Positions 17,476 through 24,977 of a DNA stretch of 42,283 bases are shown one piece after another. The notes beneath the pieces are model-generated. The model was not told the DNA's origin and did no database searches. It saw only the letters and a program-made list of their open reading frames with translations. Each line of letters opens with the position of its first letter. Position 1 is the first letter of the stretch. The stretch covers positions 1 through 42,283 of the IMG/VR virus record IMGVR_UViG_3300040811_000891; one strand, 5' to 3'. Source of the DNA: a virus. Made by a program: the position numbers and the translations under genes.

Positions 17476-17548
17476 TGGAGCGGGTAAGGGGAATCGAACC
17501 CCTACTACACAGCTTGGAAGGCTGGCGACACACCTTGTGCATACCCGC
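17476..17548 (-). tRNA. tRNA-Gly (UCC)
   Basis: Acceptor stem GCGGGTA/TACCCGC, discriminator U and encoded CCA (17476-17478). Anticodon loop CTTCCAA gives UCC, reading GGA/GGG glycine codons. The T arm AGGGG-TTCGATT-CCCCT is perfect. The D region is three or so bases shorter than normal (CAC AAGGT GTG at best), so the D loop is unusually small. Length is 70 nt plus CCA. It is separated from tRNA-Trp by one base, so both are cut from one transcript. Confidence 0.93.
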
Positions 17549-17549
17549 T

Positions 17550-17623
17550 TGGCATCGGTGGAGGGAGTCGAACCCCCGCTTGCGGTTTTGGAGACCGCCG
17601 TGCTACCATAACACTTCACCGAC
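17550..17623 (-). tRNA. tRNA-Trp (CCA)
   Basis: Acceptor stem GTCGGTG/CACCGAT, discriminator G and encoded CCA. D arm GTG-TTATGGTAG-CAC, anticodon stem GCGGT/ACCGC with loop CTCCAAA (anticodon CCA, reading UGG), T loop TTCGACT. Standard length of 71 nt plus CCA. The first base follows directly on the U-tract of the terminator at 17624-17654, so it must be made by read-through or from a promoter further upstream. Confidence 0.93.
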
Positions 17624-17801: not shown

Positions 17802-18236
17802 TTAAAACCTAGATCCGCATATTTCAAAGCCATTAATTTTCTTTTTGTATTCGTCTGCTTGTCCTACGTATATGTATTCTACACCCTGAGCTTTGTAATA
17901 AGCACATTCATGGCGTAAACTTTTAAGTCCTAAATGTAGTTTTGGAGTTGCATAGTCCCATGCAAATTGTATTGCTTCGACATTTTTATCATTGAAACGA
18001 TGGTAATGACTAAACGCTACTAGTTTACTGTTATCAAAATATCCTATTATGTCACTGCGTGGCGCACACAAGTCTTCATCAAACAACGGCATAACACTTT
18101 CAAACTTTTTGTATTTGCAGTATGTGTCGTATATTTGTTGTAATAGTTTACAAGGAGGATTGTTCAGCAGCTGAGCATTTTTGCTTACACGATAATTTGT
18201 GTCTGATAACTTATATCTTGCATAAAAATCACTCAC
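17802..18236 (-). CDS. GNAT-fold protein resembling arginyl-tRNA-protein transferase C domain
   Basis: A 144-residue protein whose second half reads LVAFSHYHRF, then EAIQFAWDYATPKLHLGLKS and ECAYYKAQGVEYIYVG followed by a Y-K-x-K-I-x-GFE pattern. This order resembles the C-terminal GNAT-like domain of ATE/Bpt aminoacyl-tRNA-protein transferases, which move an amino acid from a tRNA onto a protein N terminus. The N-terminal cysteine domain of those enzymes is missing. Nearby tRNAs and a synthetase-like gene make a tRNA-dependent role attractive but unproven. It ends just 5 nt before the promoter for the short transcript. Confidence 0.55.
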   Translation of the reverse strand: MSDFYARYKLSDTNYRVSKNAQLLNNPPCKLLQQIYDTYCKYKKFESVMPLFDEDLCAPRSDIIGYFDNSKLVAFSHYHRFNDKNVEAIQFAWDYATPKLHLGLKSLRHECAYYKAQGVEYIYVGQADEYKKKINGFEICGSRF

Positions 18237-18729
18237 GAGTTTGAACCTCTTGTTTGTATTTTGGTGTCCAATTTTTGTAATAGTTTTGTTTTTCTAACAT
18301 AGCTCTGGCTAGGTCTAGTTTGTCTTTGGGTTGTATTAGTACAAGTCCGTAAGTGCCTTGATTGAGTACAACATCCTGTACTTGTTCTACTTCATCGGGA
18401 TGATCTTCTAGTGCAATATATCCACGGTCATCTAATAATTTGTATGTGTTGTCGATTATGATGCTGAGTTCTTGTGGTGAAATACGATTGGGATCAAATC
18501 CTAGTATTACTACTTCTTTGCCTTTGGGCCAATGATATGTATAGTTTTCTAGTTCAGCTGTGATAATTAACTTGATCTCAAATGTATCGTTAAGCCAATG
18601 TGTGTGTACAGCATTATCCTGCCAAGCCTTCTTTGCAAAAGGACATGGCGGTAAATTGTTAAATGTAGCTGATGGTTTACTTAAAAAGTCGTTGATCCAA
18701 TTTTCAATACTAGATTTAAATTCTTGCAT
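18229..18729 (-). CDS. Conserved phage protein with PPCPFAKKAW motif
   Basis: A 166-residue protein. The segment NLPPCPFAKKAWQDNAV near residue 25-41 recalls the LCPFA motif of DUF1415 proteins, and similar proteins occur in marine T4-like phages. The middle is alpha/beta (EVVILGFDPNRISPQEL; GYIALEDHPDEVEQVQ). Function unknown. It follows the odd tRNA on the same strand; no clear ribosome-binding site is seen before its ATG, only an AT-rich AATAAATA stretch. It overlaps the GNAT-like gene by 8 nt. Confidence 0.65.
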   Translation of the reverse strand: MQEFKSSIENWINDFLSKPSATFNNLPPCPFAKKAWQDNAVHTHWLNDTFEIKLIITAELENYTYHWPKGKEVVILGFDPNRISPQELSIIIDNTYKLLDDRGYIALEDHPDEVEQVQDVVLNQGTYGLVLIQPKDKLDLARAMLEKQNYYKNWTPKYKQEVQTRE

Positions 18730-18745
18730 AAAAATATTTATTAGT

Positions 18746-18846
18746 TGGCTCCGGGGGGAGGATTCGAACCTCCACGGTAAATACTTTGCGAGTTACTTAC
18801 CACACGATAAACAGTCGTGCGTGTCTACCAATTTCACCACCCCGGA
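18746..18846 (-). tRNA. Class II-shaped tRNA with GUU (Asn) anticodon
   Basis: The 98-nt body plus encoded CCA folds well: acceptor TCCGGGG/CCCCGGA, D stem GTG/CAC with an AAATTGGTAGA loop, anticodon stem CACGA/TCGTG, a long variable arm of 8 bp (GGTAAGTA with TATTTACC, one G-U) with a 10-nt loop, and T arm GGAGG-TTCGAAT-CCTCC. The D arm and variable arm are of tRNA-Leu type, yet the anticodon loop CTGTTTA gives GUU, and discriminator G73 is that of tRNA-Asn, as is the U1-A72 pair. Position 37 is U, where a purine is normal. It begins 7 nt after an Asn/Asp-synthetase-like core gene. Calling it tRNA-Asn or an altered tRNA-Leu is left open. Confidence 0.85.
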
Positions 18847-18853
18847 TTAACTG

Positions 18854-19696
18854 TTATGCAGCTAGGGCAAACTTTCCTTGTTTGTCCAGCGCCGCAATCA
18901 TTCTTGTCATACCAATGCCGCCACCAACACGTTGGAAGAAGTCAAACTTGAGGAACTCTTCTAGTTCTGCTTCTACACGTTCTTTACCAAACAGTTTGTA
19001 TAGTAACTGTGCATACTCTCCGTCTACAATACTGTGGAATGTATCACGCATCATATCAACATCACAACTACGTTCTGCCGATCCGATAGTTTCCATACCA
19101 CCTAAGATGACATCCATTTTCTTTGCAGTTTCGCCATCATCGTTACGTGCCATGTTCCAGAAAGGCGATGTTAGTTCTGGGAAGTCTGTGATTAAACAAC
19201 TACCAAAATTCATTTCCATGCCTTTTTCGTGACTGTCATCCATTTCAGTATCTGCACTTACACCCCAATGTTGTTGCCATTCTCTGTATGTTTTTTCTGT
19301 TAGTGGGTCAAATCCCAAATAGTCACACAGTTCATATTCCATTGCTTTAAGATCATCTACACTACCTGGCATCTCAAACTCAAACATAGGGAAGATAATA
19401 TCGTGTCTGCCTGGTATAGCATTTGGTTCTTGTCTATAGCTGGTACTTACACAAAAGAATCCTTTTGATTCTGGCTTGCTTAATAGTTCATGTTCTAACC
19501 ACATTTGTCCTGTCTGTGGTAGCGGCCATGTTTCGCCTGCGTAATTGTATGTTGCTACATTGAATGGATCTTCACATGCGGCAAGTATGCTTAGTCTGTT
19601 TTGGGTATGGACTTCTAAGAATCCTTTGTCCAAAAAAAATGACCTTAAAAGGCCAACTGTGTCTGTGAATTTTTGTGGGTTTATTAGTTGTGTCAT
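18854..19696 (-). CDS. Class II aminoacyl-tRNA synthetase-like core (AsnRS/AspRS or asparagine-synthetase type)
   Basis: A 280-residue class IIb catalytic core. Motif 1 region is near 20-31 (FFLDKGFLEVHT), motif 2 is TSYRQEPNAIPGRHD with FEFE (about 85-108), and motif 3 is GGGIGMTRM near 259-267. ETIGSAERSCDVD matches the GExIGGSxR segment of AsnRS. The N-terminal OB-fold that reads the anticodon is missing. In archaea such trimmed AsnRS-like cores make asparagine from aspartate; free aminoacylation is the alternative. The start at 19696 has AAGGA upstream; a TTG at 19714 in the same frame is less likely. The adjacent tRNA with Asn-type identity elements (18746-18846) suggests a link. Confidence 0.85.
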   Translation of the reverse strand: MTQLINPQKFTDTVGLLRSFFLDKGFLEVHTQNRLSILAACEDPFNVATYNYAGETWPLPQTGQMWLEHELLSKPESKGFFCVSTSYRQEPNAIPGRHDIIFPMFEFEMPGSVDDLKAMEYELCDYLGFDPLTEKTYREWQQHWGVSADTEMDDSHEKGMEMNFGSCLITDFPELTSPFWNMARNDDGETAKKMDVILGGMETIGSAERSCDVDMMRDTFHSIVDGEYAQLLYKLFGKERVEAELEEFLKFDFFQRVGGGIGMTRMIAALDKQGKFALAA

Positions 19697-20759: not shown

Positions 20760-21161
20760 TTATTTAGCGGGCATAGTAAACAATGCTCTTACGTCATGTG
20801 GTTCATCTATTACCAATGGTTTACGTGAAAAAATGCACCACTTGTAAGCATGCATTGTTTGTTTGGTTGTACAGAATTCTCTAAAGCTAGTACCAGTTGT
20901 GTACACATCATCAACAACCATCCAGGAATGATCGCCAGGTGTTACATACTTTTCCATTGCGCTTTGCAATGGTAATCCGCCTCTTGGAATGCCAACTACT
21001 TTACTAAAAGGTTCTGTTTGATAGTCCATAATCATACGTGCTAATCCGTCCCACCATTCTGGTCTAATAGCATCGCATTCGATCTTCCAAGGTAGTGGTA
21101 GACCTGCGTGACTAATAAAGTCGCCTACTTCAAATAAATTTGCACTAGTGTGATATGGCAT
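20760..21161 (-). CDS. Phosphoribosyltransferase-family protein
   Basis: A 133-residue protein with the PRPP-binding loop SWMVVDDVYTTGTSF, the signature of type I phosphoribosyltransferases, and an upstream KVVGIPRGGLPL, the usual region that holds pyrophosphate. The N-terminal part supplies a short hood. Such enzymes attach purine or pyrimidine bases to PRPP. The base cannot be predicted. It is the smallest of three PRTases in this window (with 23893-24426 and 26785-27321). An AAAGGA site precedes the ATG. Confidence 0.85.
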   Translation of the reverse strand: MPYHTSANLFEVGDFISHAGLPLPWKIECDAIRPEWWDGLARMIMDYQTEPFSKVVGIPRGGLPLQSAMEKYVTPGDHSWMVVDDVYTTGTSFREFCTTKQTMHAYKWCIFSRKPLVIDEPHDVRALFTMPAK

Positions 21162-21245
21162 TTATAATCCTTTGTCTCTGAGTTTGTTAGGGTTAATCGG
21201 TGCTCTCATAGCACGATCTAATTTTTCACTACGTTCCCCACGCAT
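21162..21245 (-). CDS. Possible 27-residue basic peptide
   Basis: Between the QueE stop and the PRTase start, a short frame reads MRGERSEKLDRAMRAPINPN and seven more residues. Its ATG lies 17 nt inside the QueE end. No ribosome-binding site is seen, so this is tentative; it may simply be spacer. Confidence 0.25.
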   Translation of the reverse strand: MRGERSEKLDRAMRAPINPNKLRDKGL

Positions 21246-22125
21246 TGCCAAAGAGGCTGATGTGTAATCGGGGTGTAAACCTCCACCCTCTTTCCATGCA
21301 GATGTCTGCGACTTCTTGGACATTGAGGTTGTACTCTTCGCTCCTACCGCCCAACGGCATAAGGTAGACAGGTGCTTCAATACCTGCCGCACGATATTCA
21401 TCAACAGCTCTGCCAGCTTCATCAATGTCTGTACGATCAGCAACAACAAATTTGAAATACAGAGAGCTACCATCAACACCAGCATACTCACGAGCAACGC
21501 TAGGCTTGATAGCAGTATCCCAAGGTTCTCCGCTAATGGAGAGTTTAGGGCTACAACTCCAAGTGACTTCAAATCTGTCTTGATTGTTGAGATAGTCGTA
21601 AAAGTCGTCATGTAAAGGTTGTGTAGTGTTTGTTTCAAATGTAACATTTTTTAGATCCTGCATACGTGGGTGTTCAAATAATTCTATGTACAGTCGTTGC
21701 CACGCCAACAACGGCTCGCCGCCAGTCATTATTAAGTGTACGTCTTGTCCATTGTCTTGTACCCATTTACCATTGGGTGTCAAACTCAATAGATGTTCTA
21801 CAACTTCGTCAACTGTTGCTCTTTTATTTAAGTGTTTAAATTCAGGATAGATACTTGCATATGTATCACAGCCTGTGTGTATAATAGGCAAGTCTTCGAA
21901 CACTGTTGTATTTTCATGTACTTTCTGATCTAGTAAGCCCATTACTTCTTGATTGTGTATAACGCCTGCTTTTTGTTTAGCATCACGCATAGGCTCATCT
22001 CTGCCTAATCCAAAATTCATACAACGAAAGTTACAACCAAATGTACGTAAAAATACGCTAGGTACTCCTACATATTTGCCTTCACCTTGTACTGAATAAA
22101 ATGCTTCGCTATAGTGTAGTTTCAT
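21229..22125 (-). CDS. queE: 7-carboxy-7-deazaguanine synthase (QueE), inserted-cluster type
   Basis: A 298-residue radical SAM enzyme turning carboxytetrahydropterin into 7-carboxy-7-deazaguanine. The start MKLHYSEAFYSVQGEGKYVG is the classic QueE opening with GGAGG 5 nt before the ATG; the frame remains open 60 nt further upstream but that region codes for another gene. VFLRTFGCNFRC holds two cluster cysteines; the third, in HTGCDTYAS, follows only after about 45 extra residues, where ordinary QueE has CxxC-D-T directly. MTGGEPLL is the SAM site and RLHISLFGNAWGT the usual C terminus. The same inserted form occurs in marine phage QueE as I recall. It is part of a preQ0 pathway with FolE, QueD-like and QueC-like proteins. 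Confidence 0.93.
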   Translation of the reverse strand: MKLHYSEAFYSVQGEGKYVGVPSVFLRTFGCNFRCMNFGLGRDEPMRDAKQKAGVIHNQEVMGLLDQKVHENTTVFEDLPIIHTGCDTYASIYPEFKHLNKRATVDEVVEHLLSLTPNGKWVQDNGQDVHLIMTGGEPLLAWQRLYIELFEHPRMQDLKNVTFETNTTQPLHDDFYDYLNNQDRFEVTWSCSPKLSISGEPWDTAIKPSVAREYAGVDGSSLYFKFVVADRTDIDEAGRAVDEYRAAGIEAPVYLMPLGGRSEEYNLNVQEVADICMERGWRFTPRLHISLFGNAWGT

Positions 22126-22286
22126 AGTTCCTCCACAATGCCTAATATTTCTGCAACAAGTAAACCTACGGCTAGCCATCCCCAACTACCTGTAGCCAGT
22201 GCTACTACACAGCCTGCAATACGTGTTGCACTTTTTACAAGACTAATGTAAAAATGTTTTTTACTTGGATCTACTGGTTCAGCCAT
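22122..22286 (-). CDS. Small membrane protein, 54 residues
   Basis: Starts MAEPVDPSKKHFYISLVKSA and then has one hydrophobic segment (about 23-50; GCVVALATGSWGWLAVGLLV). Its stop overlaps the QueE ATG (ATGA) and its ATG overlaps the preceding gene by 8 nt, so both couplings support it. The QueE ribosome-binding site lies within its last codons. Function unknown; inner-membrane location is predicted. Confidence 0.75.
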   Translation of the reverse strand: MAEPVDPSKKHFYISLVKSATRIAGCVVALATGSWGWLAVGLLVAEILGIVEEL

Positions 22287-23797: not shown

Positions 23798-23900
23798 TTT
23801 TAATTCCTTCTTGTAACATACGATATGGTATAGTGCATGTCCATATATAGATAGGCCAGAATACCAAGTTTGCTACTAAAATTTCAACCCATTCACTCAT
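23784..23900 (-). CDS. Tiny membrane protein, 38 residues
   Basis: Starts MSEWVEILVANLVFWPIYIW and continues through PYRMLQEGIKNAKS. One membrane segment. Its ATG overlaps the end of the APRT gene by 8 nt and its stop overlaps the AbrB-like gene by 14 nt. It fills what would otherwise be a 95-nt gap between genes, and carries the downstream gene's ribosome-binding site. Confidence 0.6.
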   Translation of the reverse strand: MSEWVEILVANLVFWPIYIWTCTIPYRMLQEGIKNAKS

Positions 23901-24426
23901 TGTTCCAAACCGTTTCTAGTGTGCTAATAGGAAATCCTAAATCTTTTCCAGGACCTCTTACATACTGTAAATCAATAACAGTGACACCTCTCAGAACTTT
24001 AGCACCTGTTTGTTTTATTAGATCTCCGGTGGCCACCATACTACCACCTGTAGCAATCAAGTCATCTACAATAACACAACGATCTGTGTGACCCAGCAGT
24101 CCTTTTTGTAGTGTAAGTGTTGCACTACCATATTCAAGATCATAACTTTGCTCTAATAGGTCTCCTGGGTACTTAGCGCCTTTTTTACGCACCATTACAA
24201 ACGGTAAGTTTAGCTCATGTGCTATAGCTGCACCTAGTACAAAGCCTCTACTTTCAACACCTACAATGTGTGTAATATTGTCTGTGTATTCAGTTACTCT
24301 TTTGGTCATTTCGTGTACTGCTTTGCTAAACATAGGTCCAGCAAACAAACTGTTAAGATCGTAAAAATTTATACCTTCTTGAGGATAATCAGGTATTGTT
24401 CTAATATAATCTTCCCATCTAATCAT
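23893..24426 (-). CDS. apt: Adenine phosphoribosyltransferase-like protein
   Basis: A 177-residue PRTase that joins adenine and PRPP to give AMP. APRT landmarks: RTIPDYPQEGINFYDL (the IPDFP..GI.F.D opening), VGVESRGFVLGAAIA (pyrophosphate-binding ESRGF), RKKGAKYPG, and the PRPP loop CVIVDDLIATGGSM. The start at 24426 (MIRWEDYIRTIPDYP) is chosen since GGGAG lies 8 nt before it and it overlaps the TK stop (TAATG); an upstream extension to 24441 overlaps TK. Adenine released by the nucleosidase at the window start could be its substrate, closing a salvage loop. Confidence 0.93.
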   Translation of the reverse strand: MIRWEDYIRTIPDYPQEGINFYDLNSLFAGPMFSKAVHEMTKRVTEYTDNITHIVGVESRGFVLGAAIAHELNLPFVMVRKKGAKYPGDLLEQSYDLEYGSATLTLQKGLLGHTDRCVIVDDLIATGGSMVATGDLIKQTGAKVLRGVTVIDLQYVRGPGKDLGFPISTLETVWNNE

Positions 24427-24977
24427 TATTTTGGCTCCCAATGTTCAAGACATCTTGGTTCATACATGCCCATGCTTCCTACTTGAACACGATCACCACT
24501 TGCCTTTATTCTATATGTTTTAGTTGCAGTTTTACCGCACACTGTACATACTGCTTTGATCTTTTCAATGCAATCTGCAAGTCCTAGAAGTTGACTAGTT
24601 GTTTCAAAAGGTATGCCTCGGCTGTCCTGATCAAGTCCACTAGCAACTACATTAACGCCACTGCGTAACCAAGACTCTACACCTTCTAGTGTTGATTTAG
24701 TATCCATAAACTGTACTTCGTCTAAGCATACAGTATCATAGTTGTAGGGCATAATGTTAAAGTGTTCTTCTATTTCATTAAAGTCAGTAATACTTATACA
24801 TGGATAACTTAGTTGATTATGAGTAGTAATTGTATCCTCGCTGTAGCGATTATCTTTTGCAGGCTTTATGCATAATACTTTCTTTTGTTGATGATTTAAC
24901 CAAAGCACACTCTGTAATAGTTTACTAGTTTTACCTGCATACATAGGTCCAGCATATACATCTAATAGTCCTCTCAT
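24426..24977 (-). CDS. tk: Thymidine kinase, type II
   Basis: A 183-residue kinase phosphorylating thymidine to dTMP. Walker A is GPMYAGKTSK (10-19), the Walker B-like DEVQF lies near the middle, the lasso region CTVCGKTATKTYR carries CxxC of the zinc site completed by CLEHW, and GMYEPRC is the substrate-binding end. Length and order are normal for T4-type thymidine kinases. It complements ThyX for dTTP supply. Overlap with both neighbours (1-4 nt) indicates a coupled salvage operon with APRT. Confidence 0.95.
   Translation of the reverse strand: MRGLLDVYAGPMYAGKTSKLLQSVLWLNHQQKKVLCIKPAKDNRYSEDTITTHNQLSYPCISITDFNEIEEHFNIMPYNYDTVCLDEVQFMDTKSTLEGVESWLRSGVNVVASGLDQDSRGIPFETTSQLLGLADCIEKIKAVCTVCGKTATKTYRIKASGDRVQVGSMGMYEPRCLEHWEPK

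Follow-up and report, generated by a model that had tools for sequence, protein, structure and literature searches.

What does an AsnRS-like catalytic core that lacks an OB-fold do beside a tRNA gene in a virus, and is the tRNA its substrate? The question arises from the window, a stretch of 42,283 nucleotides that makes up IMG/VR record IMGVR_UViG_3300040811_000891, where the enzyme gene, here called X, lies beside a tRNA with asparagine identity marks (Table 1). A preliminary description of this DNA had put forward a class IIb Asn/Asp-type core without the OB-fold, a tRNA 7 nt away with GUU and G73, and, as a three-part idea, a nearby GNAT protein that would use the charged tRNA for tagging proteins. 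The reading we prefer, with a probability of about 0.45, is that X and the tRNA form a two-part device in which X would attach Asn to a private tRNA, and which would belong to a pyrimidine-supply set of genes no less than to translation.

Table 1. Coordinates of the features in the window and, where a locus number is given, in loci of X relatives.
Feature	Position	Strand	Size and evidence
X open reading frame	18857-19696 (ATG at 19696, stop ends at 18854)	minus	280 aa
X, AsnRS-derived class IIb catalytic core without OB-fold	18854-19696	minus	Pfam, curated models, AlphaFold2, pocket alignment
X-linked tRNA, long variable arm, CCA encoded	18746-18846	minus	Rfam tRNA 49.8 bits, E 7e-8
Gap from X stop to tRNA	18847-18853	minus	7 nt
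Small orotate-phosphoribosyltransferase-like (PyrE-like) protein	20760-21161	minus	133 aa; own-family HMM 4e-61; Pfam Pribosyltran 0.012
tRNA-Trp (CCA), ordinary neighbour outside the X-tRNA pair	17550-17623	minus	
tRNA-Gly (UCC), ordinary neighbour outside the X-tRNA pair	17476-17548	minus	
ATE_C-like GNAT	17802-18236	minus	ATE_C 6e-5, 24 bits, just under the gathering score of 25
Neighbour gene of the GNAT, product of unknown function	18229-18729		PHROG 28122/10325, weak DUF6875
tmRNA beside X	L004 1060-1390; L017 5537-5939; L020 4327-4690; L034 3426-3727	minus	
X near dus and dnaX	L177, L189, L201, L208, L210, L212, L214, L215, L237, L241		

X matches the Pfam family tRNA-synt_2 (D, K, N) at 8e-16, with 58.4 bits against a cut-off of 25, and is assigned to PHROG 29758, a family of unknown function. 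An AlphaFold2 model (mean pLDDT 94.2) contains the catalytic core only, without an OB-fold, and its closest solved structures are AsnRS (PDB 1x54, TM 0.78 by query length). The motif 2 and motif 3 residues of a class IIb core are present, and the Pfam match, the core-only model and the nearest structures together bear out the enzyme as it was first described. Among named families, the AsnRS models fit best, with X at 32 bits and far under the cut-off of 342.6 (TIGR00457). A profile search of the PDB also places AsnRS at the top (1e-13) and archaeal asparagine synthetase A (AS-AR, PDB 3p8t) much lower (5e-5). AS-AR resembles X in having an AsnRS-derived core without an anticodon domain and a similar length (294 aa), but the two are weakly related, with X reaching 20.1 bits against a cut-off of 389 on the asparagine-synthetase-A model NF005055. 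We know of no tRNA linkage for AS-AR. A role as EpmA/GenX, the EF-P lysine ligase, was ruled out at 14 bits against a cut-off of 286.9.

The pocket was compared by aligning X with AsnRS and AspRS taken from genomes. Leu67 of X occupies the position of the lysine with which AspRS reads the Asp carboxylate, the roles given to the pocket residues being those established for AspRS and AsnRS. Glu106 corresponds to the motif 2 glutamate of AsnRS, where AspRS has aspartate, and Glu42, Arg209, Arg88 and Arg265 are retained. Like AsnRS, X combines the class IIb catalytic fold and the motif 2 and 3 arginines with Glu42, Glu106 and Arg209 and has no AspRS lysine; unlike AsnRS, it is a protein of 280 aa with no N-terminal OB-fold and has a private class II tRNA. 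As predicted from these residues, the pocket is AsnRS-like and not AspRS-like, which favours Asn as the substrate, or else Asp in the reverse orientation, the one in which asparagine synthetases bind it. Across 109 X proteins, 48 positions are invariant, and a residue comparison of tRNA-linked with tRNA-free X gave one weak position and no difference in the active site.

X is encoded on more than 599 viral contigs. The tRNA follows it in 76 of the 78 closest viral loci with enough downstream sequence, in 70 of 70 P-SSM7-like loci, in 27 of 79 distant viral loci, and in 3 of 79 loci on genome contigs, all three of which are marine, phage-like contigs. The tRNA usually starts 5-9 nt past the X stop (about 3-10 nt in near relatives), with gaps of 58-371 nt in many distant loci and of 1,047 nt in one. 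Viral contigs were also scanned in reverse, with a tRNA pattern derived from X-linked tRNAs, no part of which encodes X. This gave 80 readable loci, 74 with X directly upstream and six with the tRNA at a contig edge, so that X is upstream in 74 of 74 loci where there is room and the tRNA occurs without X in 0 of the 74 testable loci. The linkage of enzyme and tRNA is not due to chance and is seen in other phages whether the search starts from near relatives of the window, from P-SSM7-like loci or from the tRNA itself. Given this obligate linkage, a functional X-tRNA pair is the most likely reading, and X would most likely charge its private tRNA with Asn, an aminoacylation that we infer from the sequences.

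Among isolated phages, the pair is carried by the Prochlorococcus phages P-SSM2, P-SSM5 and P-SSM7. The X gene of P-SSM2 and P-SSM7 has been listed as the "tRNA ligase" T4-GC 194 in a table of sporadic host-like genes (PMC3037559), and the main-text passages of that paper that a term search located make no mention of a tRNA partner, a long arm or a link to orotate phosphoribosyltransferase. The same paper gives P-SSM2 one tRNA gene in a 252-kb genome (PMC3037559), and the P-SSM2 genome contains the X-linked tRNA. We found no description of the X-tRNA pair, or of X in pyrimidine synthesis, in the open-access literature.

In the protein tree, tRNA-linked X is scattered between viral and cellular members without the tRNA and forms at least three separate viral lineages (window/P-SSM7/L132/L144; L101/L111/L150/L090; and L117, where the anticodon is GUC). 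In cellular X genomes, a search for class II GUU tRNAs gave pattern matches at about the rate of a reversed-pattern control, with four marine, phage-like contigs as the exceptions (L211, L217, L239 and L242). A candidate class II GUU tRNA in L401 turned out to be no tRNA. Elsewhere in the X-carrying jumbo and freshwater viral genomes, the search for a class II GUU tRNA returned nothing beyond ordinary tRNAs, such as tRNA-Leu or, once, tRNA-Asn. In four close relatives of the window (Table 1), a permuted alphaproteobacterial-type tmRNA (Rfam 108-134 bits) lies beside X, and its type suggests alphaproteobacterial hosts.

The tRNA itself is unusual in build. In the window, its acceptor stem is UCCGGGG/CCCCGGA, with U1-A72 and G73, and is accompanied by a 3-bp D-stem and a long variable arm. 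The anticodon loop C-U-G-U-U-U-A yields the anticodon GUU and U37. The preliminary description was right about GUU and G73 at 7 nt from the enzyme gene, where ARAGORN had missed the anticodon; its call of Asp(atc) is an artefact of the long arm. Across 32 diverse relatives, all 736 cells of the 23 modelled pairs are paired (43-59% in slid controls), and in 20 of the 23 pairs both sides change. Judged by this covariation, the X-linked RNA is a real tRNA whose fold is under selection. Its T-loop and acceptor stem are standard and the full T-arm is kept. GUU is present in 123 of 127 distinct copies, the other four being three extraction-register artefacts and one GUC, and G73 is found in 124 of 127 and U1-A72 in 95 of 96.

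These marks are shared with bacterial tRNA-Asn, which differs in having a short variable loop and A37, where most copies of the X-linked tRNA have a long arm and 113 of 127 have U37. With bacterial tRNA-Leu, the X-linked tRNA shares the D-arm and a long variable arm, but it carries G73, GUU and U1-A72 in place of A73 and a Leu anticodon. By blastn against E. coli, tRNA-Leu was the sole gene type matched, over the D-arm, in 5,395 of 5,426 genomes, with 93-96% identity over 27 nt, and the window tRNA alone had no blastn match in the phage collection. The tRNA-Leu-type D-arm and the long arm point to a leucine-type body that bears asparagine acceptor and anticodon marks. There are departures from this form. 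The tRNA of L117 (2830-2937) is class II and X-linked with anticodon GUC (Asp) rather than GUU; in five loci (L099, L106, L135, L157 and L162) the long variable arm is lost (74-76 nt) and GUU, G73 and the Leu-type D-arm are kept; and in L223, just after 6849, X is followed by an acceptor stem only, either a natural deletion or an assembly collapse.

The anticodon loop bears on whether the tRNA decodes. Of the 127 distinct copies, 113 carry U37 and 12 carry A37, C37 and G37 occur once each, and a C or A replaces U33 in 12. Of the 172 other tRNAs encoded in these loci, all but one (171) carry a purine at position 37 and U33 is found in 169 (pyrimidine versus purine at position 37, Fisher 2e-66). 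In ANN-decoding tRNAs, t6A is formed at A37, and the near-absence of A37 counts against an ordinary decoding role while leaving room for decoding. The two could still be a plain translation pair, which we regard as somewhat unlikely: X would be a minimal orthogonal AsnRS and the tRNA would read AAC and AAU in phage mRNAs, freeing the phage from the host supply of AsnRS or GatCAB or from tRNA-cutting defences, and the pyrimidine link would be a paralogous cellular use. GUU is indeed the part of the loop that varies least, the X-tRNA gene often lies within tRNA arrays, the T-loop and acceptor stem are standard, and the pocket is AsnRS-like. Normal decoding tRNAs, however, are unlike one with U37, which removes the t6A site, or with position 33 other than U, and in phages, too, X is found together with pyrimidine genes. 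X has no AsnRS domain that reads GUU, so decoding, another protein or ancestry has to account for the kept anticodon; the strictness of GUU would favour decoding or recognition by another protein. The odd anticodon loop, like the pyrimidine partners, speaks for a predicted use of the tRNA outside decoding.

There are precedents for such an arrangement. PylRS and tRNA-Pyl are a dedicated pair with an unusual tRNA, and the staphylococcal cell-wall tRNA-Gly is non-decoding. As in these systems, one enzyme and one odd tRNA may work together, possibly outside decoding; the analogy is one of working only, and the X pair differs in its standard amino acid, its carriage by phages and the pyrimidine genes nearby. 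It is very unlikely, in our estimate, that the tRNA-like unit instead serves mainly in RNA processing or control where the X transcript ends, through cleavage by RNase P or autoregulation by bound X, or as a decoy for tRNA-cutting defences. Such an element would fit the abnormal loop and the 3-10 nt that usually separate tRNA and stop in near relatives, but not the far wider gaps of distant loci or the retention of CCA or G73 and a full T-arm.

For the GNAT as a third partner, the distribution of the genes is decisive. In that proposal, X would charge the tRNA and the ATE-like GNAT would transfer the amino acid to proteins, as the weak ATE_C match and the position of the GNAT next to the pair in the window might suggest. 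Yet X is present in only 6 of 52 GNAT loci, all six with GNATs 95-100% identical to that of the window. Conversely, the 80 closest X loci, 72 of which extend 1.2 kb or more downstream, include only 2 with the GNAT. In 46 of the 52 loci, the GNAT comes with its own neighbour (window 18229-18729) as a two-gene cassette. The tagging idea is refuted by this independent distribution, the outcome that the preliminary description had itself named as refuting it. Of the three parts, enzyme and tRNA survive as an obligate pair in hundreds of marine viruses, and the GNAT drops out. The leucine-type body, U37 in place of A37 and the link of the X family to pyrimidine genes lie beyond what was seen at first.

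The pyrimidine link begins in the window. Its PyrE-like gene (Table 1) is of the same family as the PyrE-like genes of cellular X-pyrF-pyrE-pyrD clusters, is also present in 11 near loci, and is a probable functional partner of X. PyrF and PyrE-like genes occur in L092-L095 and L144, a PyrD-like gene in L211, L242 and the 198-kb relative behind L011, and a standard PyrE in five P-SSM7-like loci. Among the isolates in 50,697 phage records, that standard PyrE type is confined to P-SSM2, P-SSM5 and P-SSM7, the very isolates that bear X, a small sample of two genera out of 55 taxa directly below Kyanoviridae. X and PyrE are more than 100 kb apart in P-SSM2, and the co-occurrence therefore goes beyond mere proximity. 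More distant PyrE proteins occur without X in other phage records, and in P-SSM2 and P-SSM7 the PyrD-like and PyrF families of other X loci are absent. The window is a 42-kb fragment, and PyrD and PyrF partners may lie beyond it.

Several neighbouring features can be added. A second phosphoribosyltransferase adjoins a thymidine kinase in the window (23893-24441 and 24426-24977), and these are further nucleotide-supply genes. The ORFs 21162-21647 and 21229-22185 overlap in different frames of the minus strand, a possible frameshift or assembly error, and the longer has a weak Radical_SAM match (0.0086). In L115 (1267-2830), a 136-kb virus without the tRNA, pyrF lies directly after X.

Cellular relatives of X occur in CPR, DPANN archaea, Dependentiae, Chlamydiae, Midichloriaceae and Gammaproteobacteria, and in 22 of 72 cellular loci pyrD, pyrE or pyrF lies within about 5 kb of X. 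The order is X-pyrD-pyrE in L178 and L182 and X-pyrF-pyrE-like-pyrD-like in L190, L191, L194 and L213. Pfam confirmed OMPdecase and DHO_dh among the X-neighbours, the latter weakly in one. Such clusters are seen across cellular loci L167-L246, for example in L178, L182, L184, L190, L194, L202 and L213. Ten CPR loci have X close to dnaX and to a gene for dihydrouridine synthase, dus (Table 1).

Most of these genomes are without the upper part of the pathway. PyrB is over its cut-off in 1 of 41 cellular X genomes versus 14 of 14 controls, PyrC (multi) in 0 of 27 versus 11 of 14 controls, the PyrC dimer in 0 of 19, and CarB in 1 of 27 versus 14 of 14 controls. PyrE passes its cut-off in 12 of 27 genomes, and 16 of 19 have a match to the PyrD family. 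Many of these genomes are MAGs, for which single absences are weak and the overall pattern is consistent. With the upper pathway missing and the lower pathway kept, X is a candidate replacement of CarAB, PyrB and PyrC.

These cellular genomes also bring in the main rival to the pair reading. Here X would be a ligase that needs no tRNA, in the manner of asparagine synthetase A, the AsnRS-derived enzyme of archaea. Its product would be free Asn or a precursor of dihydroorotate, formed from Asp or Asn; the tRNA would be charged by host AsnRS, or by a non-discriminating AspRS with GatCAB, and would use or report the same amino-acid pool. We consider this unlikely. An OB-less AsnRS paralog that acts as asparagine synthetase provides a precedent (PDB 3p8t, matched at 5e-5), and cellular X sits in pyrD/E/F neighbourhoods without a private tRNA in genomes without CarB, PyrB and PyrC. 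These members have no such tRNA and an active site that is the same as in tRNA-linked X, and X may therefore not need a tRNA. For host charging, G73, GUU and U1-A72 are recognition elements of the non-discriminating AspRS and GatCAB route. However, host charging would not require that the tRNA is never found without X, and the score of X on the asparagine-synthetase-A model falls far below the cut-off.

It is the two-part device that we prefer. An OB-less, AsnRS-like core would load asparagine onto its own tRNA, which may have been rebuilt from a leucine-type body, with the long arm and Leu D-arm, by addition of an asparagine acceptor end and anticodon. The device would sit among genes for pyrimidine supply (PyrE or PyrE-like, PyrD-like, PyrF) at least as much as in translation, and the charged tRNA would be used mainly outside ordinary decoding. 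The long arms lost in five loci and the missing PyrD-like and PyrF genes of P-SSM2 and P-SSM7 weigh against it.

What the charged tRNA would do in pyrimidine supply is a matter for speculation. Asparagine and dihydroorotate differ only in the bridging carbonyl, and the C4-N3 amide and N1 amine of the ring are present in Asn from the start. It is conceivable, though decidedly unlikely, that a dedicated and largely non-decoding tRNA loaded with Asn by X, or one charged by the host, supplies the dihydroorotate skeleton and bypasses carbamoyl-phosphate synthetase, aspartate carbamoyltransferase and dihydroorotase. Phages would then have brought a private tRNA, and tRNA-free X would use an ordinary tRNA or none. 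A route to dihydroorotate that depends on a tRNA, or is assisted by one, would account for the lack of CarAB, PyrB and PyrC.

If the preferred reading is true, viruses carry a widespread synthetase/tRNA pair in which the tRNA is a chimera of leucine body and asparagine identity. A synthetase without an OB-fold must recognise such a tRNA in an unusual way, which bears on tRNA identity and on orthogonal pairs for coding work. Many reduced genomes, including those of CPR and DPANN lineages, Dependentiae, Chlamydiae, Midichloriaceae and some Gammaproteobacteria, are missing the upper pyrimidine pathway, and the X family is also a candidate for it; this candidacy makes the metabolic gap of reduced genomes directly testable.
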